A DNA stretch of 64,000 nucleotides, from assembly GCF_000372745.1 (NCBI RefSeq), contig NZ_KB889664.1, positions 319,665-383,664 on the forward strand, written 5' to 3'. Shown piece after piece: positions 27,784 to 40,082 of this stretch. This DNA comes from Embleya scabrispora DSM 41855 (lineage in GTDB: Bacteria; Actinomycetota; Actinomycetes; Streptomycetales; Streptomycetaceae). The notes below the pieces were generated by a model, which was not told where the DNA came from, did not search any database, and saw only the letters and a list, made by a program, of their open reading frames with translations. Within the stretch, counting starts at the first letter, position 1. Each line of letters begins with the position of its first letter. A program made the translations under genes and the position numbers.

Positions 27784-27840
27784 TGGTCTAGTCCACTTTG
27801 GTCCAGACCATTGACTTCTGTGTGTGCCGGGCTGTCTCAT
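27784..27840 (+). promoter_or_regulatory. Paired DasR-type (dre) sites and promoter of the chitinase gene
   Basis: Two 12-base elements, TGGTCTAGTCCA (27784-27795) and TGGTCCAGACCA (27799-27810), closely match the dre half-palindrome bound by the N-acetylglucosamine regulator DasR and the direct repeats known from Streptomyces chitinase promoters. TTGACT at 27811-27816 fits a -35 box; TCTCAT (27835-27840) is a possible -10. Repression by DasR, relieved by GlcN-6-P, is expected from family knowledge. Confidence 0.75.
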
Positions 27841-27902
27841 ACCCCATGCCGCCGTGCGACGCGAATCGGCGGTACGTCCCCACGTATACAGACTGGACGC
27901 AC

Positions 27903-29426
27903 ATGCGACTCATGCGCACATTCCGCGCGGCCGTGGCCGCGACCGTCACCACCGCAGCGGCGGTGAGCCTGACCATGATGGGTGGCGGGCCGGCCCAGGC
28001 CGCAACTCCGCTCCCGAGCCACGTCTTCGCCCCCTACTTCGAGGCGTGGACCGGTGACAGCCCCGCCGCGCTGGCCGCCCAATCCGGTGCCAAGCACCTG
28101 ACCATGGCGTTCCTCCAGACCGCGACCAAGGGATCCTGCACGCCGTACTGGAACGGCGACACCGGCATGCCGATCGCCTCCTCGACGTTCGGTGCCGACA
28201 TCAAGACCATTCAGGCCAGCGGCGGGGACGTCATCCCCTCGTTCGGCGGCTACACGGCCGACACCACCGGCACCGAGATCGCCGACAGTTGTACCGACGT
28301 CAACCAGATCGCCGCCGCCTACCAGAAGGTGATCACGACCTACGACGTCACGCGGCTGGACATGGACATCGAGATCGACGCGCTCGACAACACCGCGGGC
28401 ATCGACCGGCGGAACAAGGCCATCAAGCAGGTCCAGGACTGGGCCGCGGCCAACGGGCGCAAGATCGAGATCTCCTACACGCTGCCCACCACGACCAGCG
28501 GCCTGGCGGCCAACGGCGTGGCCCTGCTCAGGAACGCGGTCGCCAACGGCACCAAGGTCGACGTCGTCAACATCATGACGTTCGACTACTACGACAACGC
28601 CACGCACAACATGGCCAACGACACCGAGACCGCGGCGCAGGGCCTGTACAACACGCTCGCGCAGCTCTACCCGAGCAAGACCCCCGCGCAGTTGTGGGGC
28701 ATGGTCGGCGTCACCGAGATGATCGGCGTCGACGACTTCGGGCCGGCCGAGACGTTCAGCCTCGCCAACGCCCGCCAGGTCTACAACTGGGCCGTCGCCA
28801 AGGGCATCAACACCCTCTCGTTCTGGGCCCTCCAGCGCGACAACGGCAACTGCCCGAACCAGCCGGCCGCGGACAACTGCTCCGGCATCGCCCAGAACAC
28901 CTGGGACTTCAGCCACATCTTCGCGCCCTTCACCGGCGGCACCACGAACCCGACCAACGACTTCTCGGTCAAGGCGACCCCCGCCTCCGGGGCCGTCGGC
29001 GCGGGCTCCTCGACCACTTCCACGATCTCGACCGCGGTGACGGCCGGTGCCGCGCAGACGGTGAACCTGACCGTCAGCGGTGCCCCGGCGGGCGTCACCG
29101 CCTCGCTCAGTCCCACCTCGGTGACGGCGGGCGGATCTTCGACACTCACCGTCGCCACCACGGCGGCGGCCGTCTCGGGCACGTACAACATCACCGTGAC
29201 CGGGACCGCCGCCTCCGGCAGCCACATCGCGACCTACGCCTTGACCGTCACCGGCGGGAACGGTCACCAGTGCACGGCACCCCCGTGGGCGTCGGGCACG
29301 GTCTACACCGGCGGACAGCAGGTCTCGCACCAGGGTCACACCTGGAAGGCCAAGTGGTGGACGCTCGGCGAGACGCCGGGCACCACCGGCCAGTGGGGCG
29401 TCTGGCAGGACCTCGGCGCCTGCTGA
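27903..29426 (+). CDS. Secreted family 18 chitinase with C-terminal chitin-binding domain
   Basis: A chitinase of 507 residues. A signal peptide ends near AQA-AT (residue 33). The GH18 catalytic domain spans about 38-355, with the DxDxE motif as Asp153, Asp155 and Glu157 in RLDMDIEID, where Glu157 is the acid. It is followed by an Ig-like linker domain (about 358-455, DFSVKATPASGAVGAGSSTT onward) and a CBM5/12-type module at the end (WASGTVYTGGQQVSHQGHTW). It hydrolyses chitin outside the cell. The upstream DasR-type sites fit this role. The ATG at 27903 gives the best signal peptide, though its ribosome binding site is weak. Confidence 0.92.
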   Translation: MRLMRTFRAAVAATVTTAAAVSLTMMGGGPAQAATPLPSHVFAPYFEAWTGDSPAALAAQSGAKHLTMAFLQTATKGSCTPYWNGDTGMPIASSTFGADIKTIQASGGDVIPSFGGYTADTTGTEIADSCTDVNQIAAAYQKVITTYDVTRLDMDIEIDALDNTAGIDRRNKAIKQVQDWAAANGRKIEISYTLPTTTSGLAANGVALLRNAVANGTKVDVVNIMTFDYYDNATHNMANDTETAAQGLYNTLAQLYPSKTPAQLWGMVGVTEMIGVDDFGPAETFSLANARQVYNWAVAKGINTLSFWALQRDNGNCPNQPAADNCSGIAQNTWDFSHIFAPFTGGTTNPTNDFSVKATPASGAVGAGSSTTSTISTAVTAGAAQTVNLTVSGAPAGVTASLSPTSVTAGGSSTLTVATTAAAVSGTYNITVTGTAASGSHIATYALTVTGGNGHQCTAPPWASGTVYTGGQQVSHQGHTWKAKWWTLGETPGTTGQWGVWQDLGAC

Positions 29427-29431
29427 TGCCG

Positions 29432-29476
29432 GGGGTGCGACCGGCCCGGCCGTTCGGGCCCGGCCGGTCGCACCCC
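29432..29476. terminator. Bidirectional hairpin terminator between chitinase and htpG
   Basis: Arms of 14 bases (29432-29445 and 29463-29476) pair perfectly, and a GC-rich inner stem closes on TTCG. It lies between two convergent genes only 55 bases apart, so it should serve both. Confidence 0.75.
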
Positions 29477-29481
29477 ACCGG

Positions 29482-31410
29482 TTACAGACCGCGAGCCAGG
29501 TGGTCGGTGAGCAGCCGGGTGAAGCGGGCCGGGTCGGGCAGGTCGCCGCCTTCGGCGAGCAGCGCGCCGCCGTAGACCAACTCGACGATCTCGGCCAGCG
29601 CGGGGGCGTCGGCATTCGCCTCGTGCGCCGAACGCAGCGCGGTGATCAGCGGGTGCGTCGGGTTGAGCTCCAGGATCCGCTTGACCGAGGGCATCTCCTG
29701 CCCCATCGCCCGGTACATCTTCTCCAGCGTCGGGGTCATGTCGTGCGCGTCGCCCACGATGCACGCCGCCGACGTGGTCAGCCGCGACGACAGCCGAACC
29801 TGCTTCACCTGCTCGGACAGGGTCGTCGTCAACCACGGCAGCAGGGCGGCGAAGTCCTGCTCACGCTTGGCCTTCTCCGCTCCGGCCTCCTCGTCGCCGT
29901 CGTCGGTCGGCTCGTCCAGGTCGACCTGGCCCTTGGCGATCGACTGCAGACGGTGGCCGTCGAAGGCCGGGACCTGGTCGACCCAGACCTCGTCGACCGG
30001 GTCGGTCAGGATCAAAACCTCGTATCCCTTGGCGGTGAAGGCCTCCATGTGCGGCGAGTTCTCCACCATCGCGCGGGTCTCGCCGGTCAGGTAGTAGATC
30101 GCGTCCTGGCCGTCCTTCATGCGCTCGACGTACTCGCGCAGGGTGGTGGGCTTTTCCGGGTCGTGCGTGGAGGCGGCCGACACCAGCTCCAGCAGGGCCT
30201 CGATGTTGTCGGTGTCCTCGAGCAGGCCCTCCTTCAACGCTCGACCGAACTGGGCCCACAACCTCGCGTAGCGCTCGCCGTCCTTGGCCTGCATGTCCTT
30301 GATCGCGCCGAGGACCTTCTTGACCAAGCGCCGGCGTACGCCGCGGATCTGGCGATCCTGCTGCAGGATCTCGCGGGAGATGTTCAGCGACAGGTCGTGG
30401 GCATCCACGACACCCTTGACGAAGCGCAGGTAGTTCGGCATCAGCGCTTCGCAGTCGTCCATGATGAACACGCGCTTGACGTACAGCTGCACGCCGCTCT
30501 TGGACTCGCGGGAGAACAGGTCGAACGGTGCCTGCGACGGAATGAACAGCAGCGCCTCGTACTCGAAGTTACCCTCGGCGCGCATGTGGATCGTTTCGGC
30601 CGGGTCGAGCCCGTCGTGGCTGATCTGCTTGTAGAACTCGCTGTACTCGGCCTCGGTCACCTCACTGCGCGGCCGGGCCCACAACGCCTTCATCGAGTTG
30701 AGCGTGTCGACCCCGTGCGTGGTGACGCCGTCCGCGTCGGTGCGCACCGTGGCCATCCGGATCGGCCAGCGGATGAAGTCCGAGTACTGCTTCACGATCT
30801 GGCGGATCTTCCACTCGGCCAGATAGTCGGCCAGCCCGTCCTCGCTGTCGGCGGCCTTGAGGTGCAGGGTGACCGAGGTGCCGACGGGCAGACCGTCGAC
30901 GGCCTGGATGTCGTAGGTTCCCTCGCCGTCGGACTCCCACAGGGTGCCGGAGTCGGTGCCCGCCCGCCGGGTGCGCAGGGTGACCTTGTCGGCGACCATG
31001 AACGCGGAGTAGAAGCCGACGCCGAACTGCCCGATCAGGTTCTGCGCCGCGGCGGTGTCCTTGGCTTCCTTGGCTTCCTTGATCTTCTCCAGCAGACCGG
31101 CGGTGCCGGACTTGGCGATGGTGCCGATCAGCTCCACGAGGTCGTCCCGGCTCATGCCGATACCCGTGTCGCGGACGGTCAGCGTGCGGGCGTCCTTGTC
31201 GATGTCCAAGGCGATGTGCAGGTCGGAGGTGTCGACCTCGAGGTCGGAGTCGATCAGGGACTCCAGCCGCAGCTTGTCCAGTGCGTCGGAGGCGTTGGAG
31301 ATCAGCTCGCGCAGGAAGATGTCCTTGTTCGAGTAGATCGAGTGGATCACCAACTGGAGCAACTGACGGGTCTCGGCCTGGAATTCCAGCGTTTCGACGC
31401 TGCTACCCAC
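29482..31410 (-). CDS. htpG: Molecular chaperone HtpG (Hsp90)
   Basis: A full-length bacterial Hsp90 of 642 residues. The N-terminal GHKL ATPase domain has RELISNASDALDKLR (N box), VRDTGIGMSRDDLVE (G1 box) and GQFGVGFYSAFMVAD (G2 box). The middle domain includes RVFIMDDCEALMPNYLRFVK, with the catalytic-loop segment NISREILQQDRQIRGVRRR. The GTG at 31410 follows AGGGG and begins the conserved N-terminal part. It stands alone between a terminator and a long spacer. Confidence 0.95.
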   Translation of the reverse strand: MGSSVETLEFQAETRQLLQLVIHSIYSNKDIFLRELISNASDALDKLRLESLIDSDLEVDTSDLHIALDIDKDARTLTVRDTGIGMSRDDLVELIGTIAKSGTAGLLEKIKEAKEAKDTAAAQNLIGQFGVGFYSAFMVADKVTLRTRRAGTDSGTLWESDGEGTYDIQAVDGLPVGTSVTLHLKAADSEDGLADYLAEWKIRQIVKQYSDFIRWPIRMATVRTDADGVTTHGVDTLNSMKALWARPRSEVTEAEYSEFYKQISHDGLDPAETIHMRAEGNFEYEALLFIPSQAPFDLFSRESKSGVQLYVKRVFIMDDCEALMPNYLRFVKGVVDAHDLSLNISREILQQDRQIRGVRRRLVKKVLGAIKDMQAKDGERYARLWAQFGRALKEGLLEDTDNIEALLELVSAASTHDPEKPTTLREYVERMKDGQDAIYYLTGETRAMVENSPHMEAFTAKGYEVLILTDPVDEVWVDQVPAFDGHRLQSIAKGQVDLDEPTDDGDEEAGAEKAKREQDFAALLPWLTTTLSEQVKQVRLSSRLTTSAACIVGDAHDMTPTLEKMYRAMGQEMPSVKRILELNPTHPLITALRSAHEANADAPALAEIVELVYGGALLAEGGDLPDPARFTRLLTDHLARGL

Positions 31411-31713
31411 CCTGGGGTCCCCTTTCGGAAAGAAACATGATGGAACGGATCGGGCCCGGGCGGCTCACCCCGGCACCGGCGTCTTCGCGGCGATCGGGCA
31501 ACCGCGCCGTGAACGTCTCCCGCCGGACGACCATCGCATCCGCACGGCTCACGCGGTGGTGCCCGCACGGTCTGCGGCGTCGTCCCGGCCCAGGGCCAGG
31601 CACGGCGCGGCCGGGTCCGGCTCGGCGTCGGCGGGCAGGTCGGTCACCGCGCCGGGCAACGGCCTCGGACCGCGCTCCCTGTGCCCCACTGGAAGTCATC
31701 CTCTCGGCGACGC

Positions 31714-31746
31714 CATATCGTGTCGTCGTAACGACGACACAATATG
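31714..31746. promoter_or_regulatory. 33-base near-perfect palindrome in the htpG upstream spacer
   Basis: Two 16-base arms (31714-31729 and 31731-31746) surround one central base, with a single mismatch. The inner half reads GTGTCGTCGT-A-ACGACGACAC and the outer ends are AT-rich (CATAT/ATATG). It lies in the 31411-31895 spacer, about 300 bases from the htpG start, with no gene or T-tract beside it. It looks like an operator, though a terminator-like role cannot be excluded. It is not CIRCE, HAIR or a LexA box. I see nothing else in this 485-base spacer. Confidence 0.5.
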
Positions 31747-31895
31747 TCGGAGCGCTCAAGCCCGTCCAGGCGCCCCCGCAGCACCCGCCGGCACAGCGTC
31801 CGAAGGCGCGGGCCGCGAGATGTCGATCGCGCCGGACCGCCCGCACCGGGCCCGGTTTCGCCGATGAGCCCCAGGCCGCAGGGGAGTTCGCCGAT

Positions 31896-32204
31896 TCAGC
31901 GCCGGATGTGGGCGCGGCCCTGCTTGCCCGTGCCGTGTCGTTCGACGGTCCAGCCTGTGGTGAGCATGTCGAGCAGAAGCAATCCGTAGCCGCCGTCCGC
32001 GTTCGCGGGACGTTGGAGAACCAGGAGATCGCGGGCGTGGTCACCCACCCCGATCTCGACTCCGTCGGGGGAGGGGGCCAGGGTCAACTCGGCCTCGCCG
32101 CACGTATGTCGAAGAACGTTGCCCACCAGTTCCGAGACGACCTGGACGTCGTCGTCCGCGCGGTCCCGGGGCCGGCCCCGGGTGTCGAGCGTGTCGCGAA
32201 CCAC
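31896..32204 (-). CDS. ATP-binding protein of the anti-sigma (HATPase_c_2) type, N-terminally short
   Basis: The 102 residues from the GTG at 32204 contain the N box VVSELVGNVLRH and the later GYGLLLLDMLTTGW motif of small Streptomyces serine-kinase-like anti-sigma regulators. Homology appears to continue upstream in frame (WTLSNAPGIPGRVRAVVRDT, to about 32250), and the frame stays open to 32378, but it has no ATG, GTG or TTG there. Either the protein starts at 32204 and lacks its first strand, or the 5' end has been lost or rearranged. Confidence 0.5.
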   Translation of the reverse strand: MVRDTLDTRGRPRDRADDDVQVVSELVGNVLRHTCGEAELTLAPSPDGVEIGVGDHARDLLVLQRPANADGGYGLLLLDMLTTGWTVERHGTGKQGRAHIRR

Positions 32205-32391
32205 GGCGCGGACCCGGCCCGGGATGCCGGGGGCATTGGACAGGGTCCAGTGCCCGTTGACCGGATTCGACCGAGTGTGCTCCGCCGTGATGCGGCGTGC
32301 ATCGGATGGCCCAGCCGAGCCCGGCGATCCGTTTGAGGGGATGTTCGACGGACCACTGTCCCCGATATCCAGTCGGCTTCAAGGGGATGTC

Positions 32392-36954: not shown

Positions 36955-37386
36955 TCAGGCGGTGATCACCTTGCGGTCGGACCTGGTGCCGATGGAGATC
37001 TTGCGGGGCTTGGCCCGCTCCGCGATCGGGATCCGCAGCGTCAGCACACCGGCTTCGTAGGCGGCGTCGATGCGCTCGGTGTCGAGGGTGTCGGCCAGCA
37101 CGATCTGGCGGGAGAAGACGCCCACGGGACGCTCGGACAGCTCCATCTGAACCTCGTCCGCCTTGGCCGCGGGCTCGCGCCGGGCCTTGACGGTGAGCAT
37201 GTTGCGCTCGACATCGATGTCGATCGCCTCGGGGGTCACACCCGGCAGGTCGAATGCGACCACGTACACCTCGCCATCGCGGTAGGCGTCCATCGGCATC
37301 GCCGTCGGCCGCGAGGCGGTGCCGGGAGCGAGGAGCTGCTGCGCGAGCCGGTCGAGCTCGCGGAAGGGGTCGGTACGCATCAACAT
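36955..37386 (-). CDS. Hsp20/alpha-crystallin small heat-shock protein (HSP18 type)
   Basis: A protein of 143 residues with an alpha-crystallin domain: [29 protein letters not shown], and the end motif [19 protein letters not shown]. It is an ATP-independent holdase for unfolding proteins. The ATG at 37386 has GGAGG nine bases upstream. Two RheA-type operators and a divergent HSP18 regulator gene lie just upstream, the arrangement known for Streptomyces hsp18. Confidence 0.92.
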
Positions 37387-37452: not shown

Positions 37453-37498
37453 TGTCATCGGAAGGATGACAAATTCTGGTGTCATCCACACGATGACG
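37453..37498. promoter_or_regulatory. Two RheA-type heat-shock operators
   Basis: Site 1 (37453-37471) is TGTCATC-N5-GATGACA, exactly the inverted repeat reported for RheA control of hsp18 in Streptomyces albus. Site 2 (37480-37498) is the same with one change in the last base (GATGACG). They start 27 bases apart between the divergent hsp20 and regulator genes, so both promoters are probably repressed together until heat shock. Confidence 0.85.
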
Positions 37499-37515: not shown

Positions 37516-38163
37516 ATGACCGCGAACGATCGACCGGCCGCCCGCCCGCTGGGGCCCGCCTCCTTCCTCGCCGCGGCAGCAGCCCTGGAAGCCATCGACC
37601 GGGCCGTCCGCACGGCACAAGACGGCGATGTCGAGCCCGCGAGAGCGAGCGAGGGCCCCGAGCAGGCATTGGCCTCGCTGCTGCTGCTGCGCGAGATCCG
37701 CGAGCGCCTCGCCGGATGGGAGAGCGGGCTGATCGAGACCGCTCGCGACGCGGGAGCCAGTTGGGCGGACCTGGCCCAACCCCTGGGCGTGGCCAGCCGC
37801 CAGGCCGCCGAGCGCCGTTACCTCCGGTCGCGTCCGGGTCCGGCCGGTTCCACCGGCGAAGAACGCGTCACCGCCACGCGCGAACGCCGTGCCGCCGACC
37901 GCGCGGCCGGCGTCCGAGCCCGCGACAATGCCGCCGACCTGCGCCGCCTCGCGAGCCAGATCACCGCGCTCACCGACCTGCCGGCCGGCTCCCGTGCGCC
38001 CCTCGGCCGACTGGACCGGGCACTGGGCGACGACGACCCCGCCGCCCTGATCGCCCCCCTCGCCGCGACCCGCTCCCACCTGAGCGCCGACCACCCGGAC
38101 CTGGTCGCCCGTATCGACGCGCTGGTGGACCCGCTCGGGCCCGGCCCCGCCGGCACGCCGTGA
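37516..38163 (+). CDS. HSP18 transcriptional regulator-type protein
   Basis: A protein of 215 residues of the kind annotated in Streptomyces as HSP18 transcriptional regulator. The middle has a helix-turn-helix ([20 protein letters not shown]), flanked by an N-terminal helical segment with [11 protein letters not shown]-like spacing and a C-terminal region rich in Arg and Ala. The ATG at 37516 follows GAGAGGAGA. Its divergent position over two RheA-type operators suggests it controls hsp20 and itself, although it does not look like classical RheA in length. Confidence 0.75.
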
Positions 38164-38298: not shown

Positions 38299-38976
38299 CT
38301 ATTCGGCGTCCACGCGAACCCTCGGTACGGCTTCGCCGTCGATGTCGCCCGTCGCACCGGCCGCGGCCCGGGCCAGGGTGTCCTCGGTGAGCTCCGGGTC
38401 GGCGAGCAGGGCGGGCAGGAGCAGGTGCCACAGATCGGTCAGGTCGTCCTCGATGTCGGCGCGTCCGGAGAGCGCGTCGGAGACGGTGTGCATGCCGAAG
38501 AAGGCGTGGATGATCGAGCGTGCGGCCGCCGCCGGATCGACGCGCTTCGCCAACTCGCCCTTCTCCCGCGCCCGATCCAACAGCGCGCGGGCGGTGGCGA
38601 TCCAGCCCACGAAGGGAGTCGGCAGTATCGCGTCGATGGCATAGCGCTCGCCCCACAGCCGCGCTCCGCCACGAACCACCGGATCGTCGCGATAGGCCCG
38701 GGCCACCGCGAAGCTCAACCGCACCAGGCCCTCCAACGCGGGTGCGTCCGCCGGGCTTTGCCGTTCGATCAGCTCCGGCCAGGTGGCGAAGTGCGCCTCG
38801 ACGACCGCACGGGCCAGGGCATCCTTGTTGGAGAAGTGGAAATAGATGGCACCGCTGGTGAGTCCCGACGCGTTGCCGATGTCACTGATGCTCGTCCCGG
38901 CGAAGCCCCGCTCGTGGAACAGGCGTGCCGCCGTCTCCAGAAGGGATTGGCGAGTCGTTCCTGCCCGTGCCTGCAC
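38299..38976 (-). CDS. Gamma-butyrolactone receptor-type TetR regulator (ScbR/ArpA family)
   Basis: A regulator of 225 residues. The N-terminus TRQSLLETAARLFHERGFAG and SGAIYFHFSNKDALARAVVE is typical of butyrolactone receptors, and the core continues VVRGGARLWGERYAIDA, then ARALLDRAREKGEL, as in ScbR. These proteins repress antibiotic and signalling genes until they bind the lactone. The GTG at 38976 has GGAGG eight bases upstream. It is divergent from an AfsA/ScbA-type synthase gene, the classic quorum-sensing pairing. Confidence 0.82.
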   Translation of the reverse strand: MQARAGTTRQSLLETAARLFHERGFAGTSISDIGNASGLTSGAIYFHFSNKDALARAVVEAHFATWPELIERQSPADAPALEGLVRLSFAVARAYRDDPVVRGGARLWGERYAIDAILPTPFVGWIATARALLDRAREKGELAKRVDPAAAARSIIHAFFGMHTVSDALSGRADIEDDLTDLWHLLLPALLADPELTEDTLARAAAGATGDIDGEAVPRVRVDAE

Positions 38977-39006
38977 GTGCCACCTCCAGCTCGGATGTCT
39001 GCGTGG

Positions 39007-39015
39007 AAACTGGTT
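39007..39015. promoter_or_regulatory. Weak candidate core of an autoregulatory (ARE-like) element
   Basis: AAACTGGTT lies 31 bases before the receptor start, in the receptor/synthase intergenic region. Receptor binding sites of this family often contain such AAAC/GTTT cores, but the surrounding 26-base element is not convincing. It is recorded only as a place to look. Confidence 0.2.
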
Positions 39016-39158
39016 GCTGTCGCGGCTCGTGTCCGCGGGTGCCCGACGCCACGCGACAGCACGTCGATCGCCGGCTTTTCCAGGCGCGTTCGGTGCCGCG
39101 CGACGCACGGCGAGAAGACGACGTGCACCTTCCCGACCTCTGGGTTCTGCTTGTGTTC

Positions 39159-40082
39159 ATGACTACCTTTGGCGGCGGCGCGGCGTTCTCGGGTCTCTCG
39201 GTGAGACCGCTGAGCTGGTCGCGCACCGTGGCACGAGAGTCGGTACACCGGACCTCGGTGGCCGAGGTGTTGCTGACCGATGTGGTGCGCCTCGCGGAGG
39301 CGTCCTTTTTGACGGCGGCCCAATGGCCTCGCTCGCATCCCACGTTCCCGCCGGCCGGTGACGGCGGACACAGTCGGCTGATGATCGTGGAAACCCTTCG
39401 CCAACTGGGGATCTTCATCCCGTCGCAGTTCTTCTCGGTGCCCCTGGAAGCGCACTTTCTGATCAAGGACCTTTTCTACGGTGTCGACATCGCCATGGAG
39501 CCGCGTTTGCAGAGCGGCGCCACCGATATCACCTGTTTGGCGGAAGTCGACGACCTGCGCCCCACGCACGACGGCCACGGGCTGAGGGGATTGCGACTGC
39601 GCATTCGCCTCTCGGCCGGCGTCACGACCTTCGCCCGCGCGGGAGGCAACGCGCGATTCCTGGACGCGCGCACGTACGCGGCTCTGCGCGGCGCGCCACT
39701 GGGGCCGCAAGCGCCTCGACCGCGCCGCAGACCGACGCCGGAGGCGGTGGACGCGGTCCTGCCCCGCGACGTGCTGCTCGCGCACAGCGACAGCGGGACC
39801 CTGGAACTGGATCCGGCCGATCACCTGCATCCGTTCTTCTTCGACCACACCGGCGACCACGTGCCCGGAATGGTGCTCGTCGAGGCCGCCCGGCAGGCGA
39901 TCGCGGTCTTGAGCGACGGCGAGTTGTTGCGGCCGACCGCGTTTCGACTGCGCACCCCGCACTTCACCGAGTTCGATCCGCCGGCACGAGTCGAGTGCTT
40001 CCTGCACAGCGGCCGGCAGGCATCGTTTCGTTTCCGGCAGGGAGCGAGCCACACGGCGGCGGGGGCACTGCGCTACCGCTGA
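39159..40082 (+). CDS. ScbA/AfsA-family gamma-butyrolactone biosynthesis protein
   Basis: A protein of 307 residues with the two AfsA repeats. The first runs around RESVHRTSVAEVLLTDVVRL and AQWPRSHPTF; the second around PRDVLLAHSDSGTLELDPAD and HPFFFDHTGDHVPGMVLVEA. AfsA proteins condense a beta-ketoacyl chain with dihydroxyacetone phosphate in signal synthesis. The ATG at 39159 lacks a clear ribosome binding site; GTG codons at 39096 or 39132 could be the true start. It is divergent from the receptor gene. Confidence 0.85.
   Translation: MTTFGGGAAFSGLSVRPLSWSRTVARESVHRTSVAEVLLTDVVRLAEASFLTAAQWPRSHPTFPPAGDGGHSRLMIVETLRQLGIFIPSQFFSVPLEAHFLIKDLFYGVDIAMEPRLQSGATDITCLAEVDDLRPTHDGHGLRGLRLRIRLSAGVTTFARAGGNARFLDARTYAALRGAPLGPQAPRPRRRPTPEAVDAVLPRDVLLAHSDSGTLELDPADHLHPFFFDHTGDHVPGMVLVEAARQAIAVLSDGELLRPTAFRLRTPHFTEFDPPARVECFLHSGRQASFRFRQGASHTAAGALRYR

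Follow-up and report, generated by a model that had tools for sequence, protein, structure and literature searches.

A predicted RheA operator upstream of htpG in Embleya scabrispora

A 33-base palindrome upstream of the Hsp90 gene htpG, at positions 31714–31746 of the window (the whole stretch of 64,000 nucleotides that was analysed), most likely represents an operator for RheA as predicted from the sequence, with the likely rheA gene lying 5.8 kb away beside hsp18. RheA is a temperature-sensing repressor of soil bacteria and belongs to the actinomycete heat-shock response. Its operator rheO, which lies between hsp18 and rheA in Streptomyces albus / S. albidoflavus, has the form TGTCATC-N5-GATGACA, and the core of the palindrome (31721–31739) resembles that operator. 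What the sequences show directly is that the core matches this box, that such matches are rare, that the box consistently precedes rheA, and that rheA and htpG are linked in some relatives. The type of operator is known, and htpG is most likely a further predicted target beyond hsp18. In the account given in the main text of PMC11754652, rheA is divergent from hsp18 with the operator in the intergenic region, and RheA represses hsp18, negatively autoregulates and is released by heat; the regulon described so far in that text consists of hsp18 and rheA.

The palindrome reads CATATCGTGTCGTCGT-A-ACGACGACACAATATG, and inspection of 31714–31746 bore out its earlier description as 33 bases in which 16-base arms, differing at one position, surround a single central base. 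The arms reach 19 bases (31711–31749) if two mismatches are allowed. The claim that the structure exceeds chance also held, since inverted repeats as good as this one (16-base arms, at most one mismatch, loop of 0–9 bases) occur at seven places in the window compared with none in 20 dinucleotide shuffles, each of which retained no less than 98% of the window length. With seven comparable repeats, the palindromic shape is thus not unique in the window; on reading, the other six are G+C-rich hairpins, whereas 31714–31746 has A+T-rich ends. The element consists of a RheA-box core flanked by outer arms, CATATCG and CAATATG, and it lies 303 bases from the GTG start codon of htpG (31410, minus strand). 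The htpG gene itself occupies 29482–31410 on the minus strand and matches the Hsp90 models NF003555 (770 bits) and PF00183 (441 bits).

The core, TGTCGTC-GTAAC-GACGACA, located 310 bases from the start codon, shows no mismatch to the pattern TGTCRTC-N5-GAYGACA at any of the 14 specified positions, and we propose that it serves htpG as a RheA operator box. The pattern is matched exactly at only two places in the 11.39-Mb genome, 31721–31739 and 37453–37471, which are 5.7 kb apart in the same window. The genome-wide search for similar sites that the earlier note had called for thus leads to a single other exact site, in the hsp18/rheA intergenic region. The pattern read backwards served as a control and gave no exact match in this genome and matches in 2 of 150 family genomes, compared with 78 of 150 for the true pattern; a chance match of the core to the RheA box was rejected on these counts. 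With one mismatch there are six places in the genome, one of them being the second hsp18/rheA box, and allowing up to two mismatches raises the number to 90, compared with 29 for the backward control. The earlier note had seen no match to any heat-shock box. This no longer stands, as the core fits the RheA box that precedes rheA at every one of the 80 named loci (the best 80 of 280).

A scoring matrix was built from the 59 distinct exact boxes of these 80 named loci (best 80 of 280). The htpG box scores 26.4 (training range 24.6–34.8, median 30.5), in a matrix that leans to TGTCRTC-N5-GAYGACA because it was trained on exact matches to that pattern. The two boxes between hsp18 and rheA score 29.8 (37453–37471) and 21.9 (37480–37498), and, apart from the RheA boxes, no position in the window scores above 4.0. 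A tentative, weak second box (31694–31712) lies 27 bp away on the htpG side; it has three mismatches and a score of 2.8, the sixth best in the window, and when aligned with six rheA upstream regions it falls in register with their second box.

The second exact site in the window has the layout expected of a RheA operator. An hsp18-type small heat-shock protein gene of the HSP20 family (36955–37386, minus strand; PF00011, 73 bits) and a gene for a rheA-like repressor of 215 residues (37516–38163, plus strand) diverge across the exact box at 37453–37471 and a second box at 37480–37498, which has one mismatch and is 27 bp from the first. The protein shares 64–76% identity with its relatives in named genomes, and the divergent arrangement with hsp18 is common to 79 of 80 named loci (best 80 of 280 in both comparisons). 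It is likely that this gene encodes RheA, a name that follows from the layout, the boxes and the relatives. Pfam and NCBIfam models gave no match to the protein. Its predicted structure is all-helical and of low confidence (pLDDT 71, pTM 0.43); a fold search with this low-confidence model returned nothing at E ≤0.001, and the nearest sequence of solved structure, at E 0.44, is not significant. The earlier statement that no regulator gene adjoins the palindrome is literally correct within the window, but a rheA-like gene next to hsp18 is only 5.8 kb distant, and 10 family genomes have a same-strand rheA upstream of htpG. Adjoining the hsp18/rheA locus is a gamma-butyrolactone signalling pair, composed of an ScbR-family regulator gene (38299–39108, minus strand; NF041196) and a divergent AfsA-domain gene (about 39162–40082, plus strand; PF03756).

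Among named genomes, 280 rheA relatives were recovered and the best 80 analysed, so this set leans to close relatives. Within it, an exact box is located within 300 bases upstream of rheA at all 80 loci, a divergent hsp18 within 300 bases at 79 (the exception being L151), and two boxes, each with at most one mismatch, at 68, spaced by 26 bp (64 loci) or 27 bp (4 loci). No htpG was found in these 80 loci (best 80 of 280), with flanks of up to 6 kb. In the family, 78 of 150 genomes contain an exact box and 94 of 150 a rheA relative at E 1e-6; both occur in 75, the box only in three (G062, G077 and G138), rheA only in 19 and neither in 53. The Fisher P value for this co-occurrence is 1.6e-20 with kinship ignored, a figure not to be taken literally because the genomes are related. 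Four family genomes, G079, G094, G104 and G127, carry 5, 3, 3 and 3 exact boxes, respectively, which suggests further copies or RheA targets.

Linkage between rheA and htpG is seen in the family. At E 1e-100, htpG is present in 73 of 150 genomes as 74 genes (two in G041), and the region upstream of every one of them was searched for the box, with 666 to 2500 bases per stretch. A box with at most one mismatch was found in 11 of the 74. The remaining 63 stretches lack a box at this threshold, which counts against control of htpG by RheA. In nine of the 11 box-bearing stretches, rheA lies between the box and htpG on the same strand; the other two, from the window and from the same-genus genome G003, have a box that faces htpG without rheA. 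When the box is disregarded, rheA is found upstream of htpG on the same strand at 11 loci in 10 of 150 family genomes, at distances of 97 to 1422 bases, and nine of these 11 loci carry a box that deviates at no more than one position. An operon of rheA and htpG is likely at these loci. A small same-strand frame resembling MTPADLQQLLIER recurs in five of the eight rheA–htpG gaps of at least 500 bases (L116, L117, L118, L122 and L125). At the other end of htpG, a strong G+C-rich hairpin (29434–29474) separates the gene from a convergent GH18-type gene (27798–29426; PF00704) and is probably a terminator shared by the two.

Aligning seven htpG upstream regions gave no useful information, and a focused alignment of the four same-genus regions (the window genome, G001, G002 and G003) was used instead. 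In all four genomes, the sequence surrounding the box can be aligned as a block. The gene upstream of the block is ATPase-like in the window (PF13581, just below the cut-off), and the gene beside it is a short-chain dehydrogenase in G003, an alpha/beta hydrolase in G001 and an Orn/Lys/Arg decarboxylase in G002. Since the block is conserved while the neighbouring gene varies, the element goes with htpG. The window carries the htpG box in exact form and G003 carries it with one mismatch, while in G001 and G002 it has decayed. Both hsp18 and rheA are present in the window genome and in G002, and neither is present in G001; in G003, an assembly of 1650 contigs, hsp18 was not found and rheA was found only as a fragment at a contig end. 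One-mismatch RheA boxes number four in G001 and five in G003, so that the G003 htpG box is notable for its place and not for its rarity. G001 fits control by RheA, while G002, with rheA and a decayed box, and G003 do not help that reading.

The outer arms (31714–31720 and 31740–31746) lie outside the RheA box and, in the form CATAT(C/T)G and CGATATG, are conserved in G001 and G002 despite the decayed core. Outer-arm conservation with a decayed RheA core was seen at L106 and L108. These arms may be a separate element of the htpG promoter. By reading only, a possible htpG promoter, TTGTGT (31742–31737)-17-GATATG (31719–31714), spans 31714–31742 on the minus strand and encloses the box. These hexamers are weak and may mark an overlap of operator and promoter; a promoter scan of 31300–32300 found no consensus promoter.

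These arms bear on whether the palindrome could be the operator of another dimeric repressor, or a conserved htpG promoter element, that resembles the RheA box by chance. Their retention around a decayed core in G001 and G002, the former without rheA, would agree with this, as would the one-mismatch box of G003, where a complete rheA was not found. Against it, all 14 specified positions of the RheA box match, the only other exact place in the genome is the hsp18/rheA region, and rheA is linked to htpG in 10 family genomes; we regard this explanation as unlikely. Two operators of other heat-shock repressors were sought, CIRCE of HrcA (TTAGCACTC-N9-GAGTGCTAA) and HAIR of HspR (CTTGAGT-N7-ACTCAAG). 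Both resemble the htpG element in being inverted-repeat operators of heat-shock repressors, in the case of HAIR in Streptomyces, but neither sequence occurs in the window with up to three mismatches. Another candidate is a terminator or RNA hairpin that either closes the upstream ATPase-like gene at its 3′ end or belongs to the htpG leader. The minus-strand RNA does fold well (−21.9 kcal/mol, z −5.3, equalled by none of 200 shuffles), but it lacks a T-run, and a scan of 31300–32300 for terminator-like sites, in which a T-run follows a G+C-rich stem, found none. No Rfam element matches the palindrome up to E 1, pairing is broken in G001 and G002 with the left arm kept, and the upstream gene differs across the four same-genus genomes. 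A transcript-end role, which the earlier note had named as the alternative to its protein-binding site, is therefore very improbable; the absence of a T-run site, together with a block that stays with htpG while the neighbouring gene varies, favours the binding site.

It is scarcely credible that the palindrome is the decaying relic of a former RheA operator from which control of htpG has been lost. Decay of the box in G001 and G002, its one mismatch in G003 and the weak second box are compatible with such a history, but the window core is intact at 14 of 14 positions and the htpG leader does not look like the remains of a rheA gene. The best local match of the leader to rheA scores 44, a value reached in 108 of 300 shuffles and in 109 of 295 segments of the window, and a leftover gene was therefore rejected.

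The predicted RheA operator of htpG has the half-sites and 5-bp spacing of the boxes that precede rheA at all 80 named loci (best 80 of 280) and, like rheO, neighbours a chaperone gene. Unlike rheO, it has no adjoining rheA, it combines a single strong box with a weak second one, and its palindrome is longer through the outer arms. Among the matches listed in searches of the open literature, no title or abstract opening describes htpG as a RheA target, and the matches listed for the printed operator together with RheA were unrelated. Neither PMC11754652 nor PMC2687793 mentions htpG in its main text.

From these results we infer that RheA binds at htpG, that the box lies at the promoter and that htpG is induced by heat. 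RheA bound to the 19-bp core would block the htpG promoter at normal temperature and so hold htpG expression low; it may also make a weaker contact 27 bp closer to htpG. Upon heat shock, RheA would reversibly lose DNA binding, and htpG would therefore be released together with hsp18 and rheA. We lean towards the view that RheA acts as a thermostat for Hsp90 as well and is not private to hsp18, that in part of this family, probably Streptomycetaceae, htpG is tied to it either by lying behind rheA on the same strand or by an operator of its own, and that the outer arms make up another element of the htpG promoter, conserved separately from the core. If true, this would extend the RheA regulon beyond hsp18 and rheA and would supply a natural promoter for the RheA heat switches that, according to the main text of PMC11754652, are being built for Streptomyces. 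It would also link the Hsp90 chaperone with a repressor that is its own temperature sensor.
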